From: Fabrea salina
Taxonomy: Eukaryota > Ciliophora > Heterotrichea > Heterotrichida > Fabreidae
Length of the DNA stretch: 64,000 nt
NCBI GenBank assembly: GCA_022984795.1
Contig: JALIHJ010000032.1
Coordinates: forward strand, 62,001 to 126,000
Direction: 5' to 3'
Of the stretch, positions 16,982 through 37,469 are shown piece by piece. The notes below the pieces were generated by a model. That model was not told the DNA's origin and did no database searches. It worked only from the letters and a program-made list of their open reading frames with translations. The position numbers were made by a program, and so were the translations under genes. Position 1 is the stretch's first letter; every line of letters begins with the position of its first letter.

Positions 16982-18409
16982 TTAAACAAAGGAGATGTAG
17001 GGCAAGTAGTACTCTTTGTCTGAGAGTTTTATCTTCAGTTGTTCTTCTTCTAAGAACTTCAGTGGAAACTCAACTAAGAACCCTTGGACTTGACTTACTT
17101 TCTTGAGGTAAGTACTGAGTCTCGGAGTTTTTTGGAAGATGTCTGTGAACTTCTTGATTTTCGAGTCAGGATAGCACTTAAAAACCCTTCTGTAGAAAAG
17201 AGTGTTGGTTTTGGCTACTCCTTTCCAAGCCTCTTTGAAGCTTTTGCTAAGAGGGTCAGTTAAGACTTCTTCACTTAATCCAGAGAACTCTTTGAATATA
17301 CTTATTCTTAGTTGGTGGGCAGACTTAGCTACTTCAAAAGGGTTGCCTGCCATGGAGCTTTGAGTCATTTCTTTGTCTTTGATTACCATTGCGATTTCAG
17401 AGTCTCTGTTCCCAAGCATGCTTCTGTCATTGATGTTTGCACTGCCTATGATGACTGTTCTGTCGTCAACTATCATTGCTTTAGAGTGGATGTAGATCAT
17501 TTCAGTCACTGGAGTTTCTCCCAACACTGAGTGAGTTCTTAGTGAGTAAAAAGAAATGTAGTCTTTGGGGTTGATTCCTTCGGCTTCTAGTTGCTTGTAT
17601 ATTGAAGAAGGACCTCTGCAGATAGTTTTGTACTGCCAGTGCATTTGGACTCTGAGCACTGCAGCTGAGTCAGCATAGACTTCCCCTTCAAACCCAGGAA
17701 GTATAGGCATTGCCACTATTACTTGGAAAGGTTCTTGGGTTCTATGTTTCTGAAGAATCTTGTCTACAAGTTCCTGTGCTATTGAGTTCCGAATCCGCTT
17801 CCCAGCAGTGCTTGACATGAAAAACTGGTTTTCTATGTAAATAAAGTACTGGGCATTTCTGATTTCGTGAATGTAAAACTTCAAAACGGAGTTTTCAGTC
17901 TCTTCCTTTCCAAGCGACCAAAGTGCTGCACTCCTAGTTAACTGGCACTCTACTGAGTTTTGGGTTTTGTTAAGTAGCAGGTTGGTCAAGCCAACCTTTA
18001 GGGACTGATAGCCCTGCTTTTTTTCTGTTAAAAAAGGAGTTTTCCCAGTGTTGAGTTGCTCCAGTAAGTTAGTTTTCGTAACTTCGTAGTCGTTCTTTTC
18101 CAGGGCTCCTTTGGTTTGGGGGTTAAAAGATCTTGACCTTCTAGGCGGGCTTAAAAACTCAGTTACTATGTTAGCTTGGTTGTTTTTGACTTTAACTAAG
18201 TCACAAACTTCAGAGTTGTTTTCGTTCTGATACTTAAGACGGTCAATTAGCTTTTTAAACAATCCCTTTTCTGGGTTCACTTGAGTGTGGTCTACTACTT
18301 TATTCAAAACTACTTTTACGTTTGACTGAAAACGAGTTTTAAAACTCCGGATTGACTGTTGGTGCTGCAGCCCAATCATGCTTTGTCCCACTCCAGTTAT
18401 GTCGCACAC
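16982..18409 (-). CDS. Phospholipase D, C-terminal part (second HKD), +1 frame relative to N-terminal part
   Basis: 475 residues in this frame; its apparent ATG at 18409 is probably not a real start. After a variable 120-residue stretch come CQLTRSAALWSLG, FIYIENQFFMSS and the second HKD motif IHSKAMIVDDRTVIIGSANIN, then NRDSEIAMVI, all hallmark PLD sequence. Neither half would be active alone, because PLD needs both HKD motifs. The two frames differ by +1. Possible explanations are a recent one-base insertion, a programmed +1 frameshift, an unusual intron or a sequence error. Ends in TAA, 4 nt from TFIIE-alpha. Confidence 0.85.
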   Translation of the reverse strand: MCDITGVGQSMIGLQHQQSIRSFKTRFQSNVKVVLNKVVDHTQVNPEKGLFKKLIDRLKYQNENNSEVCDLVKVKNNQANIVTEFLSPPRRSRSFNPQTKGALEKNDYEVTKTNLLEQLNTGKTPFLTEKKQGYQSLKVGLTNLLLNKTQNSVECQLTRSAALWSLGKEETENSVLKFYIHEIRNAQYFIYIENQFFMSSTAGKRIRNSIAQELVDKILQKHRTQEPFQVIVAMPILPGFEGEVYADSAAVLRVQMHWQYKTICRGPSSIYKQLEAEGINPKDYISFYSLRTHSVLGETPVTEMIYIHSKAMIVDDRTVIIGSANINDRSMLGNRDSEIAMVIKDKEMTQSSMAGNPFEVAKSAHQLRISIFKEFSGLSEEVLTDPLSKSFKEAWKGVAKTNTLFYRRVFKCYPDSKIKKFTDIFQKTPRLSTYLKKVSQVQGFLVEFPLKFLEEEQLKIKLSDKEYYLPYISFV

Positions 18410-19850
18410 TGAATGGTTCCAAAACCTCTCTAAAGTGCTTTGCCATGTCCTTTACTACTTGGCCCTTTACGTACACAGCTAAGTCATGCCAAGGCATTCT
18501 TGGACACTCATGTCTGCTAATTAGTTCTTGTTGCCAGTTTTCTACTTCCACAAAGTCAGCAACTCTCACGTTCGAGTAGTCTATTCCGTTCCACACGTAA
18601 GGTTCTTCTGCATCCTTTAAGTAGTGACTGGAGTTATCGAAGCGTCCGTAACACAAGTCCAGTCCCCCCATGAACCCTACTCTGCTGTCTATACAAACCA
18701 TCTTTGAGTGGTGGCTCCACAAAAACACCCAGCCGCTCAACTCAAAGTTAGGGTGCCTTATTACTTGTATATTGGGATTTCTTTTCAGTAACTGGTTTTT
18801 GGTGTGCAGGGAATTAATACTTAGAGATAAAGTGATTTCTTTATACAGGAAGACGTAAACTTCAATACCCCTGTCAGCTAAGGAACCCAGCACTTCTACA
18901 ATTTGTGACTCAGGGTGGCTTTCACTGGGTCTAAGCAGGTAAAGTTCTGGACTCATCCACCAGTCAGAAATGAATACGTACTTCTTAGCTGACTTAAGTG
19001 TGTAGTACAAGTCACTGTAGTAGTTTTGGGAGTCAACGTAGTACTTTAGTTCCTCGGCAGTTCTAACTGGAAAAGACACTCCGTTTTCTAAGCTAAACTG
19101 CAAAGAGTCCAGAGCTTTGAAAGCTTCAAAAGCTTGAGTTATGTGGTCTTCCCACTCCTTCTGCTTAAAACGACTTCCAACTCTGAATATAAAGTTGTGT
19201 TGGGAAGTCCTTATACAAATACCGTCAGAATGAATTGCATTCTTTCTGTCAGTTAAAACTTGGAAGTTCTTTTCAAAAGGTATAACTTCAACAACCTCGT
19301 TAAAAAAGTTAGACTGTGAAAACTCTACTCCAAATTTGTTTATTCTTAGCCAGAGTTTGCGGAAGCCCCTGACTGCTTTGTAGCAGACCCAGCAAGTTTT
19401 TTGTTTTTTTATTCTTGAAGAACCTAGGGCTGACACATACCCTTCTTTGTACTTCTGAGTATTTTCTTCAAATGAACTAAAAGACAATTCTATGAATTCT
19501 GCAAAGACCAGGGCTTTTCTGTAGCTTTGGTGGTCTAATATGCCTGAAAGAACTGAATCGCAGAGTTCTAGTTGGGCTTTTTGAGTCATCCTTACAAACT
19601 GATACTTAGCAGGCAGCTGAGGTAGGTCTAGTTCACTGCCTGTTGCTTTTTTAAGCGTTTTAACCATAGCTTTAAATTCTTTGTAACTCTTGAGTATTTC
19701 CCACTCGAACTCCTTGTCTTTATAAACTGCTTTTATCTCAAAAGCAAACACACTTAGTGTTTTTCCGTGTACTAGGTGTTCCTCCGCCCGGGACTGTGTA
19801 ATAATTAAGTTTAGTTCTTCAAGCACACCACTTAAGTTTTTGGTTTCCAT
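18339..19850 (-). CDS. Phospholipase D, N-terminal part (PX, PH, first HKD)
   Basis: 503 residues in this frame. A PX domain lies at about 12-140 (KSYKEFKAMVKTL, LPQLPAKYQF) and a PH-like domain at about 150-240 (WLRINKFGVEF, NFIFRVGSRFKQKEW). The first PLD catalytic motif is HSKMVCIDSRVGFMGGLD at about 385-402. The frame then ends in TAA, just after a conserved HF-type helix (MAKHFRE). The second catalytic half continues in another frame that overlaps by 71 nt. PX-PH-PLDs make phosphatidic acid from phosphatidylcholine at membranes. No 15- or 16-nt intron with GT/AG ends bridges the two frames. Confidence 0.85.
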   Translation of the reverse strand: METKNLSGVLEELNLIITQSRAEEHLVHGKTLSVFAFEIKAVYKDKEFEWEILKSYKEFKAMVKTLKKATGSELDLPQLPAKYQFVRMTQKAQLELCDSVLSGILDHQSYRKALVFAEFIELSFSSFEENTQKYKEGYVSALGSSRIKKQKTCWVCYKAVRGFRKLWLRINKFGVEFSQSNFFNEVVEVIPFEKNFQVLTDRKNAIHSDGICIRTSQHNFIFRVGSRFKQKEWEDHITQAFEAFKALDSLQFSLENGVSFPVRTAEELKYYVDSQNYYSDLYYTLKSAKKYVFISDWWMSPELYLLRPSESHPESQIVEVLGSLADRGIEVYVFLYKEITLSLSINSLHTKNQLLKRNPNIQVIRHPNFELSGWVFLWSHHSKMVCIDSRVGFMGGLDLCYGRFDNSSHYLKDAEEPYVWNGIDYSNVRVADFVEVENWQQELISRHECPRMPWHDLAVYVKGQVVKDMAKHFREVLEPFSVRHNWSGTKHDWAAAPTVNPEF

Positions 19851-20801: not shown

Positions 20802-21797
20802 TTAATGATTATTTTCTTGTGGAACTAACAGGTTTTCTAGGTCGAAGGGTGTTAGGGAATCTCTAAATTTCTTGTCAATTTCGTAGACTACCTTGGACTC
20901 CTTTTTCCCGTTGATTTCTCCTAAGAAAGTTTCTAGTTCACTTTCTAAATCTTTTAGCTGTCTTTTAAGTATTAGATTGCAGGATCCACCGCTAAGAATC
21001 CTTGAAATAGTATGCCCGCCGATTCCAGTAAACACACGGCCTATTTTCCAAGCACGTCTTCCAGTCAAAGCAAGTCCCTGTAGCAACTTGGGGATTGTTG
21101 TAGCTGCTCCATAAGTAAAGAATAGACTCACCACGTCGAAACCATAAAGGGATAAGTCTTTGACTCTATTCCAGTCTAGCTTATTATCGAATAGATTTGA
21201 GAAATGGTTTACCTTACTCTTTATCATTTCTCTAATCTTAGTTTTTAGTTCTTCTGGGAATTGAGATCCATCTAAAAACCTAAGGTCATTGATCTTTTCG
21301 TTCATTTCTGTTTCAAATTCTTCTTTCCTTCTGTCTACAATACCTATTTTGAACTTTTTAAACCAAGTTCCCAATAACTCGCATAAGTTTATTTTAAACC
21401 GGTAGTACTCAATGTCTATTCTCATATACCCCGATCTGAACAGTGTAGCTTTTGTAATGAAATCGTCTTTGATCCTTTCAAAGGGTTTATATAGAATATC
21501 ACAAAAAAGACTTTGAATTCTATCACTGTATATTCTTTCAATTCTATTCTCTAATTCAAGGTCTAATGGGTCTATGCTCTCCAATTCGTTTTGAAATTCT
21601 TGTTTTTTAAAATCTAGTTGTCTTTTGGCTGCATCAATATCACCTAAAATATTGGCAGCTGCGTAATTCTCGGACTCTGCAAGTCTTTGGAGCACTGTTG
21701 TAGACTTGGAGTCACTTGCTATGATACCTGAAATTCCTTCAGTTCTTTCGTATATTCTACTAGTGCTATTGAACTCAACAAACTCAACGTCGGACAT
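20802..21797 (-). CDS. C-terminal helical part of the large GTPase
   Basis: 331 residues in this frame, ending in TAA. Long charged helices (1-190) are followed by a hydrophobic stretch with VVSLFFTYGAATTIPKLLQGLAL at about 220-245, GRAWKIGRVFTGIGGHTISRIL, and a C-terminal tail with LTPFDLENLL. This is the type of helical or membrane-associated domain that follows GBP/atlastin/RHD3-like GTPase domains. The frame overlaps the GTPase frame by 14 nt at +1, so the two most likely formed one protein. Decayed copies elsewhere in the window contain both parts, supporting a single ancestral gene. Confidence 0.7.
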   Translation of the reverse strand: MSDVEFVEFNSTSRIYERTEGISGIIASDSKSTTVLQRLAESENYAAANILGDIDAAKRQLDFKKQEFQNELESIDPLDLELENRIERIYSDRIQSLFCDILYKPFERIKDDFITKATLFRSGYMRIDIEYYRFKINLCELLGTWFKKFKIGIVDRRKEEFETEMNEKINDLRFLDGSQFPEELKTKIREMIKSKVNHFSNLFDNKLDWNRVKDLSLYGFDVVSLFFTYGAATTIPKLLQGLALTGRRAWKIGRVFTGIGGHTISRILSGGSCNLILKRQLKDLESELETFLGEINGKKESKVVYEIDKKFRDSLTPFDLENLLVPQENNH

Positions 21798-22509
21798 TGT
21801 AGTTGCTATCTAAGTTTGCCCTTTCTGTTTCTTCATCCAGTTCGTTTAACTTCTCTATGGCTTCATTCCATTCTTCAGCTAGTCTTTGTTTTATTTTTTC
21901 TGTTATTTCATTTAGTTCTGGAGAGTCTAATTCTTCTCTGCTTAATCCCCTCACTACAACAACAAAGTTCTTCTTCGGTATTTCTTGTCTGTCCTCGCTG
22001 CGGGCTTCATGCTTCATTAACTTGTTGAAGAACAAGGGCATTATGAACTTATCATAGATATTATTTCTATTTGTGTGTTCTTCAAGCTCCACAAGAACTA
22101 AAATCGTATCAGAAAAGCAAGAAACAAAAGCTGCCATCTTCATGGTTTCATTGCTATCTTTACCTTTGTTGAATGCTCCTTCGCAGTCTAGGTATATTTG
22201 ATTCTCCACTTTAAAGATGTCTATACCTATTGTGGTGTTTTCTGTTTTTGCTTTGATGGTGTCTGGATTAACATAAAAGGCAACTTGCTTTAAAAGACTG
22301 TTCATCAAAGTTGATTTACCCGTTGACTTTCTTCCGATCACAGAGACGACCGATGTCCTTGAACTCTGAAGAATCAAGTCTCTTCCTTCATCCCGAATTC
22401 TAGGATTGGGGTCTACTTGGAATAACTTTTTACTTGGAATTCCTTCAACCATTTTTCGATAATAACTGCCGCTATCTATTAAAATAAGAGTTTGGCAAAT
22501 GGTTCTCAT
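21784..22509 (-). CDS. GBP/RHD3-like large GTPase domain
   Basis: 241 residues if started at 22509; the ATG at 22452 (MVEGIPSKK) is an alternative. The P-loop is GRKSTGKSTLMN at about 61-72 and the G3 motif is YLDCEGAF, as in guanylate-binding and RHD3/atlastin GTPases (DTEG). Residue phrase ENTTIGIDIF fits the switch region. Where these families use Arg-Asp as G4, this protein reads VVVVRGLS, so the nucleotide-specificity Asp seems lost. It ends at TGA, one of very few TGA-terminated frames here, with the helical domain continuing at +1. Membrane remodelling or defence roles are known for the family; the role here is unknown. Confidence 0.75.
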   Translation of the reverse strand: MRTICQTLILIDSGSYYRKMVEGIPSKKLFQVDPNPRIRDEGRDLILQSSRTSVVSVIGRKSTGKSTLMNSLLKQVAFYVNPDTIKAKTENTTIGIDIFKVENQIYLDCEGAFNKGKDSNETMKMAAFVSCFSDTILVLVELEEHTNRNNIYDKFIMPLFFNKLMKHEARSEDRQEIPKKNFVVVVRGLSREELDSPELNEITEKIKQRLAEEWNEAIEKLNELDEETERANLDSNYNVRR

Positions 22510-22990
22510 AAGCTTATAGTTTAACTAAACGTCTCATGGATACCCCAATAGCTCTTGAGCCTTCACCCGCGTCGTATTTACCGCTATGCATATAAGTGTA
22601 AGGGTCCGGGCCTGAAGACCTGTTTCGCCATGAAATCGGTCATCCAGGTACTTCAGCACTTCTTTGAGTCTTCATGTTACAGCCACCTAGGAAGCCTTCG
22701 TCCACATCAGTCACTTGCATGCTTCACCACTCCCTTTCTGATCAGAAATTCAATGAATTCTTCTCATCTAACCGGGGTCCTGCGAAGTCCACAGAACTGA
22801 GCTGGATGTGAAAAAACAAGCAAACCAATAAGTTTGATAAGGTAAAAAAACTCACCCACCGGGAACTAAATATAGTTTGTGGCCCATATTTAATTCAGTG
22901 ACCGCTCAAATAACTGGGCTTTATGCTAGAAAACGAATTTTTAGCGGAAGTAAAGAAAACACCATTAGAGTGATTTTGATTATCATTAAG
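22510..22990. other. Gene-poor stretch with traces of coding sequence
   Basis: No intact gene. On the minus strand at about 22540-22790, phrases in neighbouring frames look like a decayed protein (EEFIEFLIRKGVVKHASD, then VLKYLDDRFHGETGLQART), but I could not name a family. 22800-22990 is AT-rich with nothing recognisable. Confidence 0.4.
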
Positions 22991-22999
22991 GACTATTTA

Positions 23000-23655
23000 A
23001 AAGCCAATTCTTAACTACTAAGACCTAGTTAAGAGGTTTTCAAGGTCCAAGGATTAAAAGTCTTGCTTTAATTTATTGTTAATTCAAAAACCACTTTTGA
23101 GCCTTTTGATTCCTTGATAGGCTCTATGAGTTTTTTAGTTCTTTTGGAGTCTAGCAGAACTGACTTTGAGGAATACACTTCCTAAAATAAAAAATCTTTC
23201 TTTCTTGAGCTTTTCATAGAAAACTGGCAAGAACATTCCTTTTTTCTGTTTATTCTGCCTCTAATGTCTGCTTTGGATCATCCCACTGAACTTTTTCTCG
23301 AATGCTGCTCTCATTATTCTTTCTAAGTTTCACCATCAAACCAACTTTCAGTAACCTGCACAACTCCAAGTTAAAGTAGAAATACTCAATCTCAGTCTTG
23401 CATAATTAATAGATTCTTCAAGTCTTTGGACTACTTGAGCCTTGGTCGTCCAGTCTGAAGATCTCTATTCCTTCAGTGGTGTTTTCGACTGCTTGGACTC
23501 TTCTTGTTTGACCTGGAAAACATTCGCTCCTATAAGGCTGTTCATGAAAGTTGACTTCCCGGATGGCATGGCTCCAACCACAGACACAACTGATACTTTT
23601 GAGTATTGAGGAATCAACGACTTGCCTTCATACAACTTGTTTAGCTACATCGGGA
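23000..23655 (-). pseudogene. Decayed copy A of the large GTPase
   Basis: Read on the minus strand, about 23650-23510 encodes LIPQYSKVSVVSVVGAMPSGKSTFMNSLIG in pieces, matching the intact LILQSSRTSVVSVIGRKSTGKSTLMNSLL. At the other end, about 23110-23010 encodes KESKGSKVVFEL and DLENLLT, matching KESKVVYEI and DLENLL of the intact C-terminus. The middle is shortened and interrupted by several stops and frame changes. The presence of both ends in one order shows that GTPase and helical part were once one gene. Confidence 0.85.
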
Positions 23656-23769
23656 ATTTTAAAGACTTAGATGACAACTCCTATAGCCGCATGAGTCTGT
23701 TCAGTTCTTTCGAACAGAAACATGGTTCCACTAAACGCCTTTCTCCTGTGAGTTACCTTAGGACCTGGC

Positions 23770-24560
23770 AGAGTTCTAGAGTTGCTTCTAGAAGACCAAG
23801 TCAAGGTAGGTTTGAATCCAGTACCTAATAAGTATACTGAATTTGAATTTACTTAGAACAAAGTTGGAACCTATTTGAATGCATCTAACTCCGATCTTAG
23901 AAATAGCCCAAACTAAGACCCATCATGATCCAAACAGCCCTAGTAGAATAGTAATACTTCCACCTGCATTTAGCACAAATAGGTTGGAGTCAAATCTGTA
24001 TTCTCTTGAGTAGTAGTGAGTGTTTGGGTTGTAGTTGTTTGAACTGTAGTTAATGACCTTAGGAATCCTTTCTGAAAGACTCAGTCCTTTAAAGTGTCCT
24101 CTGAGAGCAGGAGTCAGTTGGTTACTGCTGATGGGAATGCAGGTAAGGATTCGGACAGTGTTAAGTACCAGACTCCTGAAGGATTGAAACTCGGCAGTCC
24201 AGCTCCTCCTGATACTCCTGCAGTTATAGAAGTTGTAGTTTTTGCAGTATCTTGAGCTTGTTGAGTGGTTTGGTCGTCTGGGTTGAAGAAACTTAGTTGA
24301 GTTTGCAGAGTTTGGGACTCAAGCAGGAAGTTAGACTCACTCAGTAGTTGGGACCTAAACTCCAGAAGTATGACTTCTCCCTCTTTCACGTATGAGTTCA
24401 AGTCTAGGTTGAGTTCATACTTAGCAGTGTTTAAAGAGCATTCATGGTGAACTCAAACCCAATGAACTTGTTCTGAGTGTAAAGGTCGAAGTCACTCAGT
24501 TTTAGAGTTTGGAATTTCTTCAACAACCCAAAATTCAAGTTAGTCAAAGATATGCCTCAT
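23770..24560 (-). pseudogene. Decayed copy A of the Cys-rich polytopic receptor
   Basis: The longest surviving open piece (24114-24401) reads YVKEGEVILLEFRSQLL and later SFNPSGVWYLTLSESLPAFP, matching YVEEGQPFTLKFTSELR and LNPNPASLWSLINTVQILALIP in the receptor at 24962-28541. The match continues downstream in other frames (LTPALRGHFKGL, then SNLFVLNAGGSITILLGLF, then ILIRYWIQTYLDL). Only the juxtamembrane and first membrane segments are retained; the lectin, LamG and Cys-rich parts are absent. Several breaks. Confidence 0.85.
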
Positions 24561-24961
24561 GGAGCCTCATTACAGGCCTATAAAGAAATTGTGGCTTTGA
24601 TAGGGAAAGACTCTTAGTCCCTGGCTCATAGAAATTTCATTTAAAAGGTATTGTTGTAGAATCTATTTGCTTAAGTGCTTTTCTAGTAATGTTCTCTGTT
24701 CAGGGGTTTTGTGGAAAAGTCTGCCAATTCAGGGTTTGACTACTTATTCTGCTTTACACTAAAGAAAACAACTAAGTCAAAGAAGATTTAAACCAAGAGA
24801 GAAATAACAGCTACTTTCATAAGAAAAACTTAATAGTTTATCATTATAAAAAGTTCGAAAAGCAAGCAAGGGACGAAAAACTAAACATGAAGCACTTAGA
24901 CAACGCCTAGAAGAGGAATAGACCAAGAAAGAATAAATAAATAAATAGTTTATCATTAAGC
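24561..24961. other. AT-rich spacer, no gene seen
   Basis: No coding or RNA signal. It contains a 15-bp direct repeat described separately, next to the receptor stop codon. Confidence 0.5.
24832..24958. repeat. 15-bp direct repeats flanking about 97 bp
   Basis: AATAGTTTATCATTA occurs at 24832-24846 and again, identically, at 24944-24958, three bases before the receptor stop codon. The 97-bp segment between them is A-rich and has no open frame. It may be a local duplication or the scar of a small insertion. Confidence 0.75.
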
Positions 24962-26614
24962 CTACGCTTTTCTTCCTTCGAAGAACTCTAGAGCTTTTGA
25001 GTTACTGTTAATTTCTTCAATTTGCAGTTCCTCAACGACTGCATTGTTACGGGCTCTTCTGCGCTTGACTAACTCAACAACTGTCTGGAAAAAGATCAGA
25101 ACAGAAGCCAGCACTTGGACTCCCATCACTGCTAGTGTAGTGTAGATTATAACTTCCTCAACTTGTTTTTCGTAGTTAAGGTCTTCTCCCAAAAAGTAGT
25201 TCACCAGTCCAAACACTGCAAAACAACCCAGTTCAGAAATAGTGTTTGTAACTTGCAGAATTCTTTCGGAGTAAGGTCTAACAGCCACTAAGTAACCTAA
25301 AGACCCCAAAGCCAAGAAGATATTGATGAGTGATTGCATTACTGGAAAAGCACCCATCAACATAAGGTTCAAGCAGTAAAGCAGTCTCCTCAGCACAAAA
25401 AAGACGTAAAAGTACCTAGCAAATTTACCCTCTTTAACACTGAACTCGTAAAACAAGGACCCAAACATTCCGTAAAAAGCTGACTCTTCACTGAGTCTTG
25501 TAATGTGTTCAGGCTTCTTAGCAATGAACCTAAGTACCAAAACAGGAGACACTAGAAGAAATACTCCAAAGACCACTCCTACTACCCAGTTAGCAATGGC
25601 CAGTGGTTCTGTGCTGAAGTTCCACAACTGAATCAAAACTGCCAAACAAATCTCAAGGTAGGACTGAATCCAGAACCTAATGAACACTCCATACTTGTAC
25701 TCACTCAGCACTTTAGTGAACTTCTTGTGAATAACCTTCACTCTGCACTTTGATAGTGCCCAAACTACAGGCCATAGCGCTAAAATAAGGATCATCACAG
25801 AAAGTGAGTTGCCTGCGTTAGTGAGGAACAAGCTAGACTCAAACCCATAGTTATAGGAGTTACTGTGATTGTTAGGAGTTTTTTCTTGGAGGAGTTTAAA
25901 AGGGTTAGGAATAGGCACCACTTCATTGAAAGAAGAAAAGAACCCAACTAGCACTGGAGTGAGTTTGTTCTTGGAAATGGGAATCAAGGCTAGTATCTGC
26001 ACAGTGTTGATCAAAGACCACAGACTAGCTGGGTTGGGGTTTAAAAATCCCACTGTTAGACTTGCCCCAGATGCTAGTGCCACTGCAGTTTGACCATTTC
26101 TAGTTCCTTGCTTTACTTGGCTAGTTTCTGGGTTGTATGAGTAGAACCTTCCACTTAAAGTTTCGTTGAAAAGGAACCTTTCATCTACGTCTCTGAGTTC
26201 AGAAGTAAACTTCAAAGTAAAGGGCTGACCTTCTTCTACGTAGTTTTTGAACTTGAAGCTTGTGAAGTAAGTTCTGTTGGACCTTTTCTCTGTTGAGTAA
26301 GTAGTGCTTGTGTCTTGTAGCAGAATTAAGTAGTCCTCAGTAGTTAAGTTCTTGTTAGGTGGACTTGTGAACGTTAAGTTTAAGTAGTTGTTTTCTTTGA
26401 CTTCTAAGCTTGCGTAGAAGTAGCTTTTCTGGCAACCTTCAGTTTTAAAACCAGGATTGCACTCACAGGTAGAGTTCTGAGTTAAAGATGAATTTTCAAT
26501 GCAACTAGTGCATACTTCCTCTGAGTCACAAGTTGTGCAGAGACTGGGACAAGTTAAACAACTGCCAGAATGGAAGTAGGTTCCTTCAGCACAAAAGACA
26601 CAGCTCTCCTTCAA
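24962..26614 (-). CDS. Receptor C-terminal part: Cys-rich repeats and multi-pass membrane domain
   Basis: 550 residues in this frame; the apparent TTG start at 26614 is not a true start. Residues 1-65 continue the furin-like Cys repeats of the frame upstream (CVFC, CLTC, CTTC, CTSC). A beta-rich region to about 250 follows, then some eight hydrophobic helices at about 265-515 (for example VMILILALWPVVWAL and YFYVFFVLRRLLYCLNLMLMG). The cytosolic tail is basic then acidic. This layout is common among ciliate surface proteins. The frame is +1 relative to the lectin part and overlaps it by 29 nt. Ends in TAG. Confidence 0.8.
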   Translation of the reverse strand: MKESCVFCAEGTYFHSGSCLTCPSLCTTCDSEEVCTSCIENSSLTQNSTCECNPGFKTEGCQKSYFYASLEVKENNYLNLTFTSPPNKNLTTEDYLILLQDTSTTYSTEKRSNRTYFTSFKFKNYVEEGQPFTLKFTSELRDVDERFLFNETLSGRFYSYNPETSQVKQGTRNGQTAVALASGASLTVGFLNPNPASLWSLINTVQILALIPISKNKLTPVLVGFFSSFNEVVPIPNPFKLLQEKTPNNHSNSYNYGFESSLFLTNAGNSLSVMILILALWPVVWALSKCRVKVIHKKFTKVLSEYKYGVFIRFWIQSYLEICLAVLIQLWNFSTEPLAIANWVVGVVFGVFLLVSPVLVLRFIAKKPEHITRLSEESAFYGMFGSLFYEFSVKEGKFARYFYVFFVLRRLLYCLNLMLMGAFPVMQSLINIFLALGSLGYLVAVRPYSERILQVTNTISELGCFAVFGLVNYFLGEDLNYEKQVEEVIIYTTLAVMGVQVLASVLIFFQTVVELVKRRRARNNAVVEELQIEEINSNSKALEFFEGRKA

Positions 26615-28541
26615 ACAGGTTGTACCCAGAATTGCACTCTAAACATTTATCTAGAAAGCACCTGTTGCAGTTAGTAGTGCATTCAGAGCACTTGTCGTTA
26701 TCTTGGAAGTAACCAGTATTGCACTTACAAATCCCCGACTGCTTTGCAGAATGCTCCTTGCAAGTTACACAGTCTGCTTCAAAACTAGTGCATTCCTCAC
26801 AGAGTTCATCCTCACACAAATTGCAGTTTTCTGGTCTCACGCAGCCATAAGAACAAGGTCCACAGTCACTGCACGAGTTGTAGTTAGTCCCTGTCCACCA
26901 CTGCTCTATGTCGCATGACACGATGCAGTCTCCATCTGGGCACACTCCACAACCTTCAGAGCAAGAACTAGTAACTAACCCAGAAACATCAAACTTCTCA
27001 TTGTAGATTCTGAGCTCGTATAAGAACCCAGTGAAATGGTTTTGGTAATTGCCTGAGTTGAGTTTGGATCCTAGAGTTATTTGGTAGTTCTGTCTGATGT
27101 CTGAGTACCAAGAGTCTGGAGTAGAATCTAGGTTGTTGTTCAAGTTAGTTCCCATTTCAATTGTGAAGTCTGGGTCCATGTAGACTTTTCCCCAGACAAA
27201 GTTCCAGGCTTTAAGGGTAGTTGAACTGGTAGAAGCAAGCTCAAAGCTCTGGGAGTTCTTCAGTAGCACTTTGAATTTAGGACTCCCAGAGTCTAGACTG
27301 AACTCTAGTTTGTCTTGGTTGAGGTTTTCATCTATCTTTGAAAGTAAGACTCCACTGCTAGAGTCAGGACGCACCCAAACAGTGATAGTAAAGTGAGGAG
27401 CGAAAGTGAACTCTTGTTCAGAGGGATCAGGGAACCTCATGTAAGAGGAACCTGAGAAGTAGTAGCCTCTTTTGTAGGCAGCCCATGGGTCAGTAGTTCT
27501 GTAATTGGGGTAGAAAGAAGAGTCCTCTCCAGTGTAGACTCTGATTCCTAGTGCCTGGTCCTGCACAGTGTCTTGTATTTGGTGAAGAGTTAAGTGGAAT
27601 ACTGGACTTGCTTGTTTGGTACATTGATCTGGATTCTCAGAGAACCCTGTTGGACAGTAAGTCTGGAACAGGTCGTAAGTGTAACAGCAGAGTTCAGTGT
27701 AGAATGCTGCCCATGATGTGGTCTCAAAAGCAACATGGCTTTGCTCTTCGGTATCTATTTGAGTCTCTTCAACACTCATTGAGATTTGATTGTTCAGATT
27801 ACTTTCGTAACCTCTAGGGTACGAACCATCACCCCCATTGAAAGTGTTAGTAGTAGCAACGAAAACAGGTGGATCAACAAAAGACTCAGTAGTAGTTATG
27901 TCTTTTCTTTCATCCTTTAGACTAACTTTTCCAAATTCGCTTTTTGGTCCAAAATTATAAACTCCTTGAATAATGGCTACCCATCCCACTATTTCTTGAT
28001 TGGTGATTGTATTAGTGAACAAGTCTTCCTCTTCAAGGTTATCAAGCACAATTTCAAACCCATTTGAATCAACATTCCTCATTCTAATGTTGACCCTTTC
28101 ATTATTGCTGGTTTGTACAAAAGCCAGCACAGTAGGAGTCTCAGCAAAAGCAGAACTAAATAATATAGAATGCCAGTTTCCATCACTCAGAGTCTTCTTT
28201 CCACCCTGCATACTGCTAGGCAATTGAGCAATGTCAACCACGAAATAACTAGCTTCTTCAACTGGGTGGTTTGGCCTTTCACTTGTTTTCTCAGTGGACT
28301 CCAACACTAAGTCAAACTTGATTGAGTCCAAGTTAGCTACTCTGCAAGTAGCAGGACGAAGGTCATTGTGAGTCACTACATTAGCAATGACTACTGGATC
28401 AGTGAACTCTTCATCAAAGTACACTCTGGTCGGAATTCCGTTTCCAGAGCTATCAGTTCCTTCTAGAATGACTCTTCCGACTTGAATTCTAGCAAGCATT
28501 TCTCTCACTTGGAAGCACAAAATCAAGGCAATCAAAAACAT
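26586..28541 (-). CDS. Receptor N-terminal part: H-type-lectin-like, LamG-like and Cys-rich
   Basis: 651 residues in this frame. A signal peptide of about 15 residues is followed by two or three beta-sandwich repeats at about 17-270 with F-x-DPVVIANV / ETPTVLAFV / DPPVFVATT motifs typical of H-type (discoidin C-terminal) lectin domains. A LamG/concanavalin-like domain lies at about 345-525 (YYFSGSSYMRFP, FTITVWVRPDSSSGVLLSKI, GFLYELRIYNEKF). Cys-rich repeats run from 530 to the end. It stops at TGA, and the Cys repeat pattern resumes at +1 in the frame that encodes the membrane part. A carbohydrate-binding surface receptor is inferred. Confidence 0.8.
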   Translation of the reverse strand: MFLIALILCFQVREMLARIQVGRVILEGTDSSGNGIPTRVYFDEEFTDPVVIANVVTHNDLRPATCRVANLDSIKFDLVLESTEKTSERPNHPVEEASYFVVDIAQLPSSMQGGKKTLSDGNWHSILFSSAFAETPTVLAFVQTSNNERVNIRMRNVDSNGFEIVLDNLEEEDLFTNTITNQEIVGWVAIIQGVYNFGPKSEFGKVSLKDERKDITTTESFVDPPVFVATTNTFNGGDGSYPRGYESNLNNQISMSVEETQIDTEEQSHVAFETTSWAAFYTELCCYTYDLFQTYCPTGFSENPDQCTKQASPVFHLTLHQIQDTVQDQALGIRVYTGEDSSFYPNYRTTDPWAAYKRGYYFSGSSYMRFPDPSEQEFTFAPHFTITVWVRPDSSSGVLLSKIDENLNQDKLEFSLDSGSPKFKVLLKNSQSFELASTSSTTLKAWNFVWGKVYMDPDFTIEMGTNLNNNLDSTPDSWYSDIRQNYQITLGSKLNSGNYQNHFTGFLYELRIYNEKFDVSGLVTSSCSEGCGVCPDGDCIVSCDIEQWWTGTNYNSCSDCGPCSYGCVRPENCNLCEDELCEECTSFEADCVTCKEHSAKQSGICKCNTGYFQDNDKCSECTTNCNRCFLDKCLECNSGYNLFEGELCLLC

Positions 28542-28559
28542 TATAGACTGTTAAAGGGT

Positions 28560-29800
28560 ATCCCTGATCAAAAAAGGGAGTTAGTGTAAAAACTCTTCTG
28601 GAGACTCACAAAAGGCAACTACTTTGACAGTCCTGATAGCTTCTCAGGATGAAATTGATCCTATGAAACTTTGAAATAACTCAGGGCCTAAGATAGTGCT
28701 TGTCTGTATAGCTCAGGACGCTTCAGTTAGTTGCTAAAACTTTAAGATAAATCCAACTAAAGCTGACTTAACTGGAACTTAACAACCTTTAAGCTAACCA
28801 TAATCTTATATACACAGAATCGAATTAGGTTTCTTCACAAAAATACAGTTCCTTTCAGCAGGTTATAGCCAAATTTTAGAATCCGTAGGGGCCTCATAAG
28901 TTATTTGGTAGTAGTCTCCAGTGTAAGAGTCTGTATTGAAGAAGCCGAAGCAGAAAGGATACACTAGAGCTTAGCTTGACTTCTTATCAGAAATGTAGTT
29001 GGAAGTTTTCTTCAGTGGTAGTTACAAGCCTTGAACTCTCAGAAGCTTTTGACGATGGCTAGAAAGAGCAAGTCGTTTATGAGGAAGTTGAAACTCTCTA
29101 GAGATCTTTTGATTGCTTCTGAAGGCTTGGATTGAGCAGTTTTCTTCGGAAAAAAGACTGGGTTGTCTGGTAGTTGGGATAATACAATGGTGTGTAGTCC
29201 GGAGAACCCATTAGAGTAGTCTAAACCGCCAAAACGTATATGCGGTTTCAGCTTAGCACACACTAAGCCTCCAGTGAGTAAGAAGCTTTAAACTCTTCTA
29301 AACAGAACTTAGCCACCCTAAAGCGAAGCTTTTGAACCAAGCACTTACTCTGAAATAGTGTGCTAGTTCTTTTTTGAACTTAAATAGTTTTAGTTCAATC
29401 GCTGATAGGAACATTTCCGTTTGTGAGGAAACTTTGTAAAGACACCTTAACTCTTATTGCCTTCAAGTTCTTCAATGTTGCTTATAGTTTCTAAATCCAA
29501 AAGTAGGGTTTTTAAGTTCTTTTATAAGCTTTTTTGACTTTGTATGTGCATTGACTAGGACCCCTACGTTGTGCAGGTCTGGCAAGTACTTACACAAGAA
29601 GTCACTTTCCATCAACAAGTCAATTTAAATAAGTTTTTGTAGTCTTCAGTTGTCTTAGTACAGGAGTCCCCAAGACTTAAGTTTAGAGTTAACTAGAATA
29701 TTGTTTTTGGAAGTATAGCAAGTTCATCAGCTATTGACTGCTAAAAGACAAATAGCACTGGAAGTAAACACAAAAACATCAGAGGTGTTTTAGTTATGAT
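28560..29800. pseudogene. Remnant region with unidentified decayed coding sequence
   Basis: No intact gene in 1.2 kb. On the minus strand at 29039-29263 a 74-residue open piece contains IRFGGLDYSNGFSGLHTIVL and LPDNPVFFPKK, and neighbouring frames at 28870-29010 read ALVYPFCFGFFNTDSYTGDYYQ. At 29500-29640 another reads MESDFLCKYLPDLHNVGVLVN. Spacing and strand suggest one or two old host genes, but I recognise no family. Several stops and frame changes separate the pieces. Confidence 0.45.
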
Positions 29801-29819
29801 TACTCAAAACCAATTCTTA

Positions 29820-30480
29820 ATTATTAAGGCCGAGTTAAAAGGTTTTCAAGGTCCTTCACTGCAACTACAATGTTGTTTTTCTGGGTCCTTGCTTTGAGTA
29901 GCTTGTTGAAGAAAAGAAGCATCAAAAACTCTTCATAGAGTTCTCTGAGTGGCACTCTTCTTTCCTTACAAGAATCAAAATGGTGTCAGGAAAACAGACA
30001 CAAAAGCAGCCATCTTCATGCTTTTATATTGTGTAGAAGCTTCTTCGCAGTCTAGGTATATTTGATCGTCTATTATTAAATCTTGTTACCGATCGGAAGG
30101 TCAGCTGTCATAGCCCTATCTCCAAGGACCCTTCTTGTTCAGCCCTCGGTGGTCCTTGCTCCAATCACAGCATATATTGGCAACTCATAAGTCCTAAGGG
30201 ATTCAGTGAATCCAGTAATTACTCCCCTTATGAAATCAATGGTACCGTATCAGAAGGTAGTGCCATAAAGCCCTAGCCCCTAACAGACCCTTCGTGCCCT
30301 CGGTATCACCAAGTCCTTGCATACTATGGGATTGCCGCAGTGCTAGGTATATTGATCCGTCTAGTCTCAAGGTCTTATTCAAGCAAGGGTAGTTTTCGAC
30401 TGCTTCGACTCTTCTTGTTCAGCCTGGAAGACACAACCCCAATTACTGATACAATTGGAACTCATAAGTCCTAAGGAATT
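29820..30480 (-). pseudogene. Decayed copy B of the large GTPase, internally deleted
   Basis: At about 30075-29960 the minus strand reads DDQIYLDCEEAST and SMKMAAFVSVF, matching NQIYLDCEGAF and TMKMAAFVSCF. At about 29915-29835 it reads FFNKLLKARTQKNNIVVAVKDLENLLT: the GTPase core strand is joined directly to the C-terminal DLENLL tail, so the helical domain was deleted. The 5' side (30080-30480) is a jumble with an internal imperfect duplication. Several breaks. Confidence 0.82.
30050..30480. repeat. Imperfect internal duplication, offset about 285 bp
   Basis: Several phrases occur twice in the same order. CTAGGTATATTTGATCGTCTA near 30052 recurs as CTAGGTATATTGATCCGTCTA near 30335. TTCTTGTTCAGCC near 30129 recurs near 30412. 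AACTCATAAGTCCTAAGG with a following AGTGAATCCAGTAATT occurs near 30190 and near 30450. This is a diverged tandem duplication within the decayed GTPase copy. Confidence 0.75.
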
Positions 30481-30640
30481 AGTGAATCCAGTAATTGATA
30501 AGTATAATTAACTCGAACCCGCCTAAGAGAAAGTTGGATGCAGTTCGGATGCATCCAACTCTGATCTTAGAAATGACCCAAACCAAGAGCCATGATCCAA
30601 GCACTTCTATCATCGTGGAAGCATTTGGGATCAGTAATCC
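30480..30640 (-). pseudogene. Short fragment B of the receptor gene
   Basis: The minus strand here is nearly the same as 23800-23950 in receptor copy A, including GGATGCATCCAACTCTGATC versus GAATGCATCTAACTCCGATC on the plus strand. Both correspond to the receptor segment around KFTKVLSEYKYGVFIRFWIQ. Only about 160 nt is recognisable. It sits next to GTPase copy B, just as receptor copy A sits next to GTPase copy A. Confidence 0.7.
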
Positions 30641-30849
30641 CAGCTGGAAGTGGCTATTTGACTCAGGCTTGCAGATAACACAATTCTGGCTAGAACAAAA
30701 CCATATTTATTGTTTTATTCATCTTACCTTGACTTTAGTTATTCATCCATGCTTGTCTAAACCAAGTCCAAACACCCTTTCTGAAGGTCTGATAAGGGTA
30801 CCACTTTTTCTAGACTAAAACAAAGGATCTGATCCCATGTTATTTATAA
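30641..30849. other. AT-rich spacer, nothing recognised
   Basis: Between the receptor fragment and the next intact gene I see no gene, RNA or clear repeat. Confidence 0.4.
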
Positions 30850-31569
30850 CTAAGCTTGTTGCTGGTTTCCAAAGTAAGCCTTCAAGAAAAACTTAACTTC
30901 GTCAATGCCTCCTTTAGCTAGACTTGTTAAGTTCTTCCAGATCTCTTCAGGGTAAGTCCACTGCAAAGTATAGTACCAAAACACCAAGTAGAAGTCCAAG
31001 CACAAAAACACCCAAGCCACCATAGCATAGTACAGACTGGAGTTATCTTCCCCAGCCACGCCTGTAAGGTCCACTAGCAGTCCTACTAAGTCAAACAGTC
31101 CTCCTAAACAAGTGATTACTAAGTAAAAGGCTAAAGGCCTTGTACAACTTTTAAACTGATCAAAAACTTTTTGCTGTGCAAGGTCAGAACCTTCTCTGAT
31201 GTCTTCAGGGAGTTCTTCTAGGATCTTGTGCGACCTAGGCAACTTCAGTATGATTTGGTAAGTGAAGTAAGGCCTTACAAAGTGCAGAAGGTGCATTAGA
31301 ATCATGAGTTTCCCGCTCATGAGCAACAAGATGAAACTTGTAGTCATCAAAAAGAACTCTATAAGACTTTGCCAGTACAAAGTTTGCCTTAAGTTGTACA
31401 GGACAAGTTCTGTTTTAACAGCGTAGAGTCCCCAGCGAGTGTACTCTTTGGTTTTGCTGCCCATGCTTCCTAAGAGTCCTCCTAAAACGTTTCCCTGCTT
31501 TTCTTGAGGAGCAGGTTCTATTTCCTGTGAGTAAGAACTCACACTGATGTGGAAGGGGTCTTCTGCCAT
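30850..31569 (-). CDS. Four-helix membrane protein, unknown
   Basis: 239 residues from the ATG at 31569, chosen because it follows the stop of the upstream large gene by 10 nt. Four hydrophobic helices are visible at about 75-92, 95-115, 150-175 and 190-212 (FFLMTTSFILLLMSG, AFYLVITCLGGLFDLVGLLV, MVAWVFLCLDFYLVFWYY). The N-terminus has a Gly-rich linker (GNVLGGLLGSMGSKT), and the C-terminus is an amphipathic helix. No family is recognised. The gene ends in TAG at the border of the decayed region. Confidence 0.65.
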   Translation of the reverse strand: MAEDPFHISVSSYSQEIEPAPQEKQGNVLGGLLGSMGSKTKEYTRWGLYAVKTELVLYNLRQTLYWQSLIEFFLMTTSFILLLMSGKLMILMHLLHFVRPYFTYQIILKLPRSHKILEELPEDIREGSDLAQQKVFDQFKSCTRPLAFYLVITCLGGLFDLVGLLVDLTGVAGEDNSSLYYAMVAWVFLCLDFYLVFWYYTLQWTYPEEIWKNLTSLAKGGIDEVKFFLKAYFGNQQQA

Positions 31570-31579
31570 AATTATTAAC

Positions 31580-34500
31580 TTACAAGTGGTTTTTCCTAAG
31601 TATTTCAAAATCGTCGTTTTGGGACTCAATGTCTACTTTGCCAAAGGACTGCTCACTGCCTGAGTTGCTGATTGGTTCGAGTTTTGTGCCAGGTCTTACT
31701 GTTCTTTTCTTTAAGTTTTCTATTTTGGGAGACCCAGGTAGTTTTCTAGTTGGTTTTTTGATGGGAGGAAGAGTTAAGCTAGGTGCTTCGATGTCTTGGA
31801 CAGTAACTTGTTCCTCAAAAGAAAACTCTTCTACTTTGGCAAAAGCTTTGGGAGTGTTGGTTTCTGAAGCAGAGTAAGACAAGTCTTGACTGAAAGAAAC
31901 CTCTGGACCTTTGAAACTCATACAAAGCGGAGATGAGATCACTGAAAACTTAGGACTTGTCTCTTCAGATCCTTCTAACACGTCTGTAACTGCAGCTCCT
32001 GAGAAACTCCTCCTTGCTTTAACGTACTCGCCTTTCAAAACTAAGTAAGCACAGTGGATGTCTCCTTGCTCTATGTTCAGTTCGGAAGTGTCTGAGTACT
32101 GCACAAGTTCAGAACTAGGCAAGTTTGTGTGGGGGTTTCGAGCTGGAACTCCTTGGAATCCTTGCTTGACCTTTACTAAGTACCCTGAGTCTTTATGCCT
32201 AACTAGTACAGCTTCCAAGTCATTAGGGTCTATTTTGGCAGAGCCAAAGTCGAAGTCTTGCTCAGAAATGACTTCTCTGCCAATTTTCCAGCCTCTCCAA
32301 GTGTCTTCAATATCTATGATTTTGGCTCCTTTGATTGATCTGTTCACCAGGACTTCTTGGTTGGTTTGTTTGTGTTTGAACATTGCGTAGGTTGGGTCTA
32401 CTTCTACTAAGTAGTACTCGTTTAGGTTGTTAGTAGTGTCTTCTTGAAAGGGTTTTTTAATAACAACTTTTTTTCCTGAACAGTGAGTTATAACTATGCA
32501 TTCAGAGTTCAAAGGGTCTACTTGGGCAGTTTCTAAGTCTAGTTCTTCCTGAGATTCAATAGTTTGGAGGATTTGAGGAGCACTGAAACTAAAGTTTATG
32601 GTTTCACTAGGTGAGCCTCTGAAGGTTTCCCTAAAAGTTTCTCGGAGAGTTTCGCTTTCAGGCTCGTTTTTTTCAGTGTTTATCATTTCAGTAGTTGCTT
32701 CGAACTCAGGCTGCACTTTAGTTCCTCTAAATAACTCTTTGGACTCCTTTCCGATCACAACTCCCATCTGAACCATGTCCAAAACCAACAAAACCACTCC
32801 AAACACAGTGACTATCAATGCATCTAAAGCTGCTGCAAACAGTAAGTTTTCTTGTGAAGACCAAAAAAGTGTACAAGTCAGCAAAGCACCCACAGGAATA
32901 CTTACTACCAACAAACTGATAAAACAAAACACTACAAGTTGTTTGTAAAAACCAGTTTTCTTTCCAAACTTAGCACAGCACGAATCTAACAAGTTGCACA
33001 AAATAAACCTTATGAACTTAAAAGACACCAAACACAAACCTACAGTGAACCACATTGTTTTTTTGTGGTTTTTGGCCCATTCACAGTGCACTTTGTCAGC
33101 TCTCATAAAGACTCCCAAGTACATAATTAAGAACACCACGTTCATAAGCAACTCTCCTAAAAGTATTCCTAGTAAACCATACAAAGCAAAACTAACCTCT
33201 TCTGACTCCATTAACCTCCTACTTTCAGACTCACTACCTAACAACAAACACCCTACCCAAACTCTTGAGGTAGTTTCTAAGATGCTCATCACACTCACAC
33301 TGCCCCCTACCAAACTTCCTCCTTTATAGAACTTAACTAAACTCAGCACGCAAAAACTAAAAGTCCCAACACAACTTAAGGGAAAAGGACTCTGTTCTAT
33401 TGCTAGTTGTTCTTTGTCTTCATTGACTTTTTGACTACTGGGGTTAGTGGACTCCAGGCACATTCCATCGTCAAAGTTGCAGTCTTGGTTATTGCACTCA
33501 AAGTCACAAACGTTGTTGTTAAGTAGTTCTAGCGTGCAGCCCTCAGAACAGTTCTGAGATCCAGCCTCAACCCTTACGCACTGGAAGTCTTGTGGAGTGT
33601 AGCCTTGTGGACACTCTTCTACACACAAACTCTCAAACAAGTAAAAAGAAGCTTTGCACGAAGAACAAGTAGAAGTTGAACTGTAGCAAGTAAGACAGGG
33701 TTCTTTACACCCTAGACACTCTGTGTCAAAACTAATAGTTCCTGGAGGACAAGTTTCTAAGCAAATCCCTTCATACAAGTGCATTTCTTCAAAGCAACTA
33801 GTGCAGTTAGCACTTGAACCACTGCAAGTTCTGCAACTTGAGTCACAGTCTCTGCACTCAACTCCAGATTTAAAAGTTCCAGGTGGGCACGTTTCAATGC
33901 ACTGGTTTTGATATAAAAACTTATTGTCTTGGCACTCCAAACAGTTGTCAGGGGACCCTTCACATATTTTGCAGTTACTTGCACAGTCCAAACACTCGTC
34001 CCCATAAATGATTGTTTCTCCTTGAGGACAAGCACTTATGCAGTTGCCTTTGTACCTGAACTTTCCTTGTTCGCACTTAGTGCAGTAGTTGATATCTCCA
34101 AAGCATTCCTTGCACTGGCTTGAGCACTCTTGGCACACTTTGTTGATTCTGGCGTAGCCTGAGGGACAGTTGTTCAGACACTTGTTTTCATGAAGAAAGA
34201 ATCCATCGTAACAAGAAGTGCATGAGTCTATACTTCCAGCACAAGTTACACAGGAGTTACTGCAGTCATAACAAACTCCTTCAATGGTTAAAGTGAAATC
34301 TTTAGGGCAGGATGATAAGCACTCGTCTTTGTAAAGCACTCTGTTTGTTTTGCAGGATGTGCACTTTGAAACACTTACTTCACAAGTAAGACAGTCTAGC
34401 GAACAATCAAAGCACTCCTGACTTAGTTCTATTTGACTACCTGGTGTGCAGGAGTCAATGCAGGTACTTTTATATAGCTTTTTGTCTTCAAAACAAGAAG

Positions 34501-36766: not shown

Positions 36767-36767
36767 T

Positions 36768-37469
36768 TTAGTTATAATTAGGTTTATCTGTGATTCTAAC
36801 GTCACGGTAAGGCAGAGCGTTTTCGTACTTAAGAATGCTTGCTGCAGTGGAAGGCCTAGGGTCAATGTGTTTTTTGTGTGTTCCAAACACGTCAACGTTT
36901 CTTTCGTGTTCAAATACTTGACTGGCGTTGCGTTTGTTACTGAATAAAAGTTACTAGTTCCTTTGTCTGTTTAAAGTGGGTTGGGGAGAAGAGGTTATGT
37001 AGTTCCTGCAAGTAGCTTGTCTGGCTTGCTGTTGTTTGTAGCCAACTCGTTTGCTGTAGTGGTTAGGGACTTCAAAAGACTCCTCGGTCTGCAAAATAGG
37101 GTTGCGGGTTGGAGTTTGTGGCCTCACTCTTTTACTGAATCTTTCTGGAGAAGGTGGTGCAAATGTGGGCTCGAATACTTTTTTGGAAGGTCTGTACTCT
37201 ACAGGGGTGTCGCGGTTGACGTTGAGACTTCCTTGTAGGAGGCTCGAAAACTCTCCTTTAGCTATTCCTCGAGGTCTGTCTTGGAGTCGTTTGGATTCGT
37301 TAAGGTAGTTTTTTACTAGGACTTTTTGGGGTTTGTAAGGGGTTTGTTGGACGTCTTTTTGGAGAATAGGGTCTCTAGTGTTGACTTTGTGTTTGCCAGG
37401 AGGCCTGTTTAACCGACTGAAGAACTCTTTTTCAGCGGCAAGTTGTGCAACAGGAGGACTGTTCTGCAT
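36768..37469 (-). CDS. Unknown basic protein, one 15-nt intron
   Basis: 228 residues after removal of the intron at 36940-36954. Exon 1 (36955-37469) is Pro/Arg-rich with repeated SKRVRPQTPTRNPI-like motifs and no membrane or coiled-coil segment. Exon 2 adds NKRNASQVFEHERNVDVFG and ends YRDVRITDKPNYN. Short evenly spaced conserved-looking motifs and basic charge are typical of microtubule-associated or inner-lumen proteins of cilia, but this is a guess. The TAA is separated by one base from the ATG of the giant Cys-rich gene. Confidence 0.72.
36940..36954 (-). other. 15-nt intron
   Basis: GTAACTTTTATTCAG on the minus strand, phase 2, branch-type A at position 10. Unspliced, its first bases create a TAG/TAA. 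Spliced, the frame remains open 57 more codons and stops one base before the next gene. Confidence 0.85.

Follow-up and report, generated by a model that had tools for sequence, protein, structure and literature searches.

A hybrid receptor gene in Fabrea salina suggests ectodomain exchange across a large receptor family

Introduction

How do two nearly whole genes come to lie among decayed pieces of both? The question is raised by a stretch of 64,000 nt of the ciliate Fabrea salina (hereafter the window; bases 62001-126000 of contig C29, JALIHJ010000032.1, assembly GCA_022984795.1). On its minus strand the window carries a gene for a polytopic, lectin-bearing receptor, a GTPase gene and two decayed sets, A and B, each with receptor and GTPase pieces. 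This arrangement had been recognized in a sequence-only reading, and translation and tblastn placed the two genes and both sets at about the same positions. That reading took the sets to be three copies of one receptor-GTPase unit. The present analysis makes it probable, instead, that a large receptor family exchanges its ectodomains, that the window contains one product of this system together with its debris, and that the GTPases are a second family dragged along.

The genome searched comprises 18.33 Mb in 103 contigs, labelled C1, C29, C55 and so on, and is characterized by long genes, few introns and the standard code. The telomere-type repeat CCCTAACA was found at both ends of C1, and its pattern gave 11,301 overlapping matches across the genome. 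Gene structure, genome size and telomere type are consistent with a heterotrich. A literature search by titles and abstract openings, with subscription papers mostly outside its coverage, found no description of the receptor family.

The window receptor is a hybrid

The receptor in the window is a hybrid of a C55-type lectin/LamG ectodomain and a C77-type membrane half. The ectodomain (26651-28541; signal-like start, H-type lectin, LamG and Cys-rich parts) is 91-92% identical in DNA to the copies on C53 and C55, and the N-terminal half of the protein shows 85-94% identity to the receptors on C55, C53, C39, C85 and C71. The Cys-rich and polytopic membrane half (24962-26673) is 93-94% identical in DNA to C77 and C69; the C-terminal half of the protein shows 92-93% identity to C69, C77 and C43, and 35% to the C-terminal half of C55 itself. 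The DNA match to C55 runs from 29385 to 26651 (93.5%, 2,755 bp), extending about 850 bases beyond the start codon on the upstream side. The match to C77 runs from 26673 to 24932 (93.8%). The switch between the two parents is located inside the Cys-rich block, within the 23 bp (26651-26673) where both match, and the last 100-base bins on the N-terminal side of the joint are 97-99% identical.

The joint is in frame, and a single-base frame change (26586-26614) follows about 55 bases downstream. A frame change exactly at the crossover was considered and rejected on this ground. The GTPase gene is likewise split by one frame change (21784-21797). The description of both genes as near-intact thus holds in that they are largely whole, but not in that each has a broken frame. 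Tiny introns behind the two frame changes were rejected, since inspection by eye found no suitable GT-AG stretch.

In the ectodomain, LamG (PF13385) scored 32.2 bits against a cut-off of 27.6, and H_lectin was borderline, with 27.0 bits in the genome search and 23.6 in the hmmscan of the open reading frame (ORF), against a cut-off of 24. The ectodomains on C77, C69 and C99 match PA14 and TIG in Pfam. One core type therefore bears different recognition modules. The DNA that was carried along upstream of the ectodomain (28541-29385) is common to C55; within it, at 28905-29071, lies a decayed piece that can be aligned with the TIG part in receptors of the C77 type. This piece was entertained as proof of selection on the core, and the argument was dropped because C55 has the same piece.

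For each half of the window receptor, the ratio of nonsynonymous to synonymous substitution rates (dN/dS) is 0.26-0.30, which is inside the range of its relatives. The frame break is therefore recent, an error, or tolerated. In the lectin part (27700-28200), dS is 0.31-0.39 compared with 0.04-0.17 elsewhere, in all three pairs compared among the window, C55 and C53. Perhaps the lectin part is a second exchange unit within the ectodomain. Positive selection on it was rejected; its dN/dS is 0.30-0.34, and it is dS that is raised.

Ectodomain exchange in the receptor family

The search with the membrane half listed at least 79 matches (79 of the 246 candidates scored). A receptor map was built from 244 pieces in four match lists: 79 membrane-half rows, 132 of the 134 rows of a second list, 28 entries condensed from 92 ectodomain rows, and 5 places matching the set A junction. 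Merging by a 1.5-kb rule gave roughly 129 receptor loci on 56 contigs. The merging is approximate, so that genes may be split or fused, and the map is incomplete, places from the TRP profile search (for example on C75, C73:52k and C69:73k) being left out.

The two halves of 29 receptors were compared in 406 pairs; C43, C24 and C67:56k, with an incomplete ectodomain or frame, were excluded here and from the clustering. Discordance between the halves was found in both directions. The ectodomains of C68:14k and C58:110k are 99% identical and their membrane halves 38%; for C53 and C55 the values are 94% and 36%. The reverse was observed for C58 and C53 (ectodomain 44%, membrane half 88%) and for C57 and C58 (47% and 90%). 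Compared with C81, the receptors on C4, C12 and C19 have ectodomains of 95-99% and membrane halves of 51% identity (95 versus 51 for C19/C81). Loose clustering gave 13 ectodomain types and 16 core types in 19 combinations.

A change-point scan, in which no pairs were chosen beforehand, covered 351 pairs of 27 receptors, C4 and C12:60k having dropped out with under 400 residues. It detected 41 sharp identity switches; the pairs share events and are not independent, and the counts do not give a rate. Of these switches, 23 fall in a stretch of 127 residues (-51 to +75, out of about 1,040 residues) around the Cys-rich block, and the 14 strongest are all inside it. In eight swapped receptors (C53, C55, C57, C58, C19, C81, C21 and C68:49k) the frame is open, with lengths of 1,477-2,747 amino acids.

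The tracts themselves could be followed in DNA. The C68/C58 tract, 97.3% identical over 4,474 bp, begins at the start codon of the C58 gene and reaches the Cys block. The core tracts of C57/C58 and C57/C53 end 7 bases past the stop codon, that of C53/C58 about 170-210 bases beyond it, and the C19/C81 tract begins within the gene.

Among 22 relatives scanned, LamG was found in 18 (12 over the cut-off) and PA14 with TIG in three, and H_lectin occurs at five places genome-wide. The TRP-like family PF06011 exceeds its curated cut-off at 28 places in the genome, 21 of which are on listed receptor membrane halves, and eight of 17 aligned membrane halves match it at E 0.1 or better. The receptors thus resemble this family in that some of their membrane halves reach its curated cut-off; they differ in that the window copy has no match and in that the adhesive ectodomain lies outside the Pfam model. 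A sequence search of the PDB with the window membrane half returned no match, and single-sequence structure prediction of this half was uninformative, with a mean predicted local distance difference test score (pLDDT) of 39.5.

We propose the following mechanism. In receptors of this family, a Cys-rich stalk joins a polytopic TRP-like membrane half to an outer half built of recognition modules (mostly LamG, in a few cases with H-type lectin, or PA14-TIG). Dispersed members would exchange sequence by ectopic recombination or gene conversion, with switches in or near the stalk, so that a given ectodomain is placed on different membrane halves and vice versa, in frame where read in detail. Sets A and B would be remnants of exchanges that failed or were truncated. 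The GTPases, enriched at contig ends, would sit in the same recombining DNA and be carried along. Because a signal-like start, an adhesive or lectin ectodomain, a Cys-rich stalk and a TRP-like core occur together, ligand-gated cation entry is suggested: the receptors may bind sugars, cells or prey, binding may open a TRP-like cation path, and diversity may be selected. The sequence-only reading had proposed a fast birth and death of surface receptors, and the genome-wide exchange speaks for it more strongly than the evidence on which it was first based.

Several observations weigh against this reading. The receptors compared were picked by their likeness to the window membrane half and not randomly. 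The switches outside the Cys stretch number 18 of the 41, nine near -350 to -430 and nine elsewhere, and the ends of the exchange tracts are not uniform. Identity is mosaic even inside the ectodomain, so that dN/dS mixes histories. The membrane half of the window receptor has no Pfam match of its own and stays below the PF06011 cut-off. The window hybrid itself has a frame change, and the swapped copies C68:14k, C4, C12:60k, C76:20k and C20 have split frames; many products may therefore be dead.

It is worth considering whether the locus is a heap of pseudogenes and the swaps are neutral by-products of repeat recombination with no functional meaning. The fragments, the broken frames, the mosaic GTPase described below and the non-coding pieces common to C45, C56 and C58 agree with this interpretation, and several swapped receptors elsewhere are broken too. 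However, eight swapped receptors retain open frames, the switches cluster where ectodomain and core meet, and each half of the window receptor has a dN/dS of about 0.26-0.30. We regard this interpretation as unlikely.

Another possibility is that the exchange is programmed, macronuclear development joining lectin, LamG or PA14-TIG cassettes to TRP-like cores at the Cys-rich block. Each new somatic nucleus would then have its own receptor repertoire, and the system, though spread over many loci, would be related in logic to the Tetrahymena mat locus and to the assembly of lymphocyte receptors. We give this little chance of being correct; the mapped switch positions make a germline or a somatic origin directly testable with reads.

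The decayed sets and the GTPases

If receptor and GTPase formed one functional unit that was duplicated as such, the window would hold one live and two dead copies of it. In both decayed sets a receptor scrap does precede the GTPase, and the points at which the receptor sequence breaks off are no more than about 18 bp apart. In set A, both a receptor membrane half (23796-24846; tblastn over 24419-23797, E 2e-26, 87.4 bits for the best piece) and a GTPase that retains a 5' flank of its own (23021-23764; tblastn over 23635-23021, 54.7 bits for the best piece) are decayed. The nearest relatives of this GTPase are on C82, C44 and C12 at about 80% DNA identity. Set B consists of a receptor scrap (30470-30661; tblastn over 30661-30470, 36.6 bits, E 1e-4; 75% DNA identity to set A, E 2e-17), joined to a decayed GTPase (29843-30433) that was found by tblastn. 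In the latter, 30076-29848 matches L011 (E 1e-19, best piece 52 bits), and more of the GTPase lies at 30433-30358. The similarity between the sets, claimed earlier, stands above background: the top score in 100 two-base-block shuffles of the set A and B stretches was 26.2 bits, compared with 36.6-87.4 bits for the fragments.

The junction of set A, however, does not behave as part of a unit. A 521-base query over this junction was searched against the whole genome, and both of its sides were found together only in set A itself and, in pieces, in set B. All 11 other receptor matches end at query position 163-166 (about 23795), and the homology of six GTPase loci starts at position 197 or later (about 23764); no other genomic place spans the breakpoint at 23764-23796. 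A weak match at C79:3412-3521 (71% over 121 query bases, 166-286), just upstream of a receptor gene, starts at the break and covers the GTPase-flank side only. Contig C69 carries a relative of the window receptor and, behind it, the second receptor known from set A (87% over 1,063 bp), which there continues past the break of the window copy, and genome-wide GTPase searches found no match on that contig. Nine of the 11 receptor matches are 89-96% identical to the receptor part of set A, whereas the relatives of its GTPase part are 78-81% identical to it, so that the two parts differ in age. The receptor remnant of set A was duplicated together with the neighboring receptor and not with a GTPase. 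A co-duplicated unit in set A, which the order of receptor before GTPase had been taken to indicate, is rejected on these grounds.

The receptor side of set B stops about 18 bp short of the set A break and joins inside the GTPase gene. Set B is also partially duplicated, 30127-30220 and 30407-30496 repeating a part that includes the receptor-GTPase joint. The breaks in the two sets are at nearly one receptor position, and this near coincidence leaves room for a shared local origin, which the two sets may have.

The GTPase gene (20802-22509; ORFs 21784-22509 and 20802-21797) is itself a mosaic. Part of its C-terminal half is up to 98% identical in DNA to the GTPase at C29:169 kb. Along the gene, identity to that copy is 87-98% in 21720-21321, 61% in the bin from 21220, and 47-67% over most of the N-terminal half, which shows about 50% protein identity to its relatives. 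With a chimeric receptor, a mosaic GTPase and a set A junction seen nowhere else, the reading of the sets in the window as three copies of one unit is not supported.

Searched genome-wide, the N-terminal half of the GTPase gave 17 matches, namely 16 loci including that of the window, and set A; set B was detected by tblastn within the window. Its P-loop follows the pattern GxxxxGK[ST] (GRKSTGKST). The G4 motif of GBP/RHD3-type GTPases is RD. The window GTPase has VRGL at this place, and other aligned members have KDL, KNH or, on C18, RDL. In Pfam the N-terminal half scored 19.4 for GBP (cut-off 21.1), 23.3 for RHD3 (42.4) and 35.9 for MMR_HSR1 (21.9), and the copy at C29:169 kb scored 25.5 for GBP and 36.7 for RHD3; no Pfam domain was recognized in the C-terminal half. 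These proteins are thus similar to GBP/RHD3 large GTPases in their GTPase motifs and in weak Pfam similarity, and dissimilar in the RHD3 score below cut-off, in the P-loop spacing lost in three aligned members and in the unrecognized C-terminal half. In a profile search of PDB sequences, SMG9 and Era ranked first, and the matches that followed included GBP5 and Sey1. When three GTPases were scanned against defence families, the only matches were weak ones around the P-loop, and the immune-type role suggested for the GTPase was not borne out by this analysis. Separate, clear GBP-type GTPases are present on C16, C31, C15, C59, C11, C70 and C19, two of them in frames of 1,666 and 1,704 amino acids.

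A regular partnership of the two families would leave them adjacent elsewhere in the genome. A receptor lies within 3 kb of nine of the 16 GTPase loci, and a further open frame, with its end about 0.5 kb upstream of the GTPase on C55, probably encodes a receptor. Counted by lineage, adjacency (three of six) differs from random places at p 0.0006, or at 0.006 with a 21-kb and 0.018 with a 10-kb contig-end control; these p-values are too small because the receptor map is incomplete. Adjacency is therefore above random, as the sequence-only reading would have it, but it comes mainly from one subfamily, which accounts for seven of the nine loci, and the GTPase is not a regular partner of the receptors: only 10 of the roughly 129 receptor loci have one within 3 kb.

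This duplicated subfamily is a real GTPase-receptor cassette. Its seven loci, on C47, C49, C50, C51, C52 and twice on C68, lie near contig ends and share the order GTPase then receptor, which agrees with a unit; the P-loop of the aligned cassette GTPases is damaged, which does not. In the three that were aligned (L017 on C52, L019 on C51 and L020 on C47), the P-loop is two residues short and the G3 and G4 motifs are altered, and by these motifs the cassette members are possibly pseudo-GTPases. At five of the seven loci, those on C68 not included, a gene with a large ORF precedes the GTPase. Its family occurs at 27 places, and the end of one member (L017:1-1365) had no Pfam match at E 0.01. Taken together, a single functional unit of receptor and GTPase is very unlikely.

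Under the ectodomain-exchange reading, the GTPases would be passengers of recombining DNA. In the contig-end statistics, which cover 101 of the 103 contigs, 14 of the 16 GTPase loci, all those outside C29, are no more than 21 kb away from a contig end; this zone makes up 21.7% of the genome (binomial 4e-8, the loci not being independent). The receptors show a weaker enrichment in the same zone (49 of 129).

That the hybrids and frame changes arose in assembly, because reads of repeated genes were misjoined or left uncorrected, is most improbable. Frame changes do occur also in the adjoining PX-phospholipase D gene and in a large Cys-rich gene, and C54, which starts without CCCTAACA, repeats C83, whose end has it, at 97.8%. 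However, most 100-base bins in both halves of the window receptor differ by 2-19% from the closest copies found, so that joining reads of those copies would not yield it. The shared identity at the joints is short (23 bp in the window), and an assembler should not be misled by it. Swaps were also seen again at separate loci, and at eight of these the frame is open.

Neighboring features

The PX-phospholipase D gene (16982-19850) that adjoins the array has a frame change with no obvious tiny intron, which could be an assembly indel or a sign of a decaying gene. Just upstream of set B lies the very large Cys-rich gene (30850-36913; furin-like, weakly VSP-like), with a frame change at 31580-31629. 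Three pieces outside genes (22521-22773, 24847-24906 and 30616-30776) are 70-95% identical to DNA near receptors on C45, C56 and C58 and look like further exchange debris. Farther away, the ORF at 47826-52022 matches the Cys-rich parts of the receptors weakly at 51441-51983 (best E 6e-9). Near-duplicate stretches were observed between C54 and C83 (L127/L128; 97.8% over 6.7 kb) and between C58 and C78 (L126/L054; 97.5% over 7.6 kb), and the receptor copy on C78 ends early.

Comparison with known systems

If the ectodomain-exchange reading is right, a single-celled eukaryote has a repertoire of roughly a hundred or more receptors in which recognition modules are exchanged on channel-like cores. 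The receptors would then be concrete candidates for the discrimination of prey, mate or self in heterotrich-type ciliates.

In trypanosome VSG and Plasmodium var genes, gene conversion creates mosaic genes and subtelomeric debris accumulates. The present case differs from such antigenic variation in that the organism is probably a free-living ciliate, the receptors are polytopic, and the exchange is focused at a module border.

Among ciliates, Tetrahymena has young families of leucine-rich-repeat (LRR) genes. These are enriched in the parts of micronuclear chromosomes next to telomeres and centromeres, and ectopic recombination takes place among them (PMC6564038). The young families, the enrichment at chromosome ends and the ectopic recombination are similar to what is described here. 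However, the LRR genes are repeat-based, whereas here an ectodomain and a channel-like half are exchanged, and our distances are to the contig ends of an apparently macronuclear assembly.

The nearest functional parallel, by analogy of architecture, is the Tetrahymena mating-type pair MTA/MTB. These proteins have a variable extracellular N-terminal part and a shared C-terminal exon with a Cys-rich growth-factor-receptor domain and five transmembrane helices, and recombination is proposed to run between the C-terminal exons (PMC10901506, PMC7398496). Here, too, a variable ectodomain is placed on a Cys-rich and transmembrane part, and the switches are concentrated at the Cys-rich part. The Tetrahymena system is one locus with a head-to-head pair, whereas here there are roughly 129 dispersed loci on 56 contigs, with lectin, LamG or PA14-TIG ectodomains and a TRP-like core. 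There, rearrangement takes place in the new macronucleus; here, the likeness is one of pattern in a single assembly. If the ectodomain-exchange reading is correct, such a family would provide an evolutionary setting in which the mating-type assembly of Tetrahymena could have arisen.

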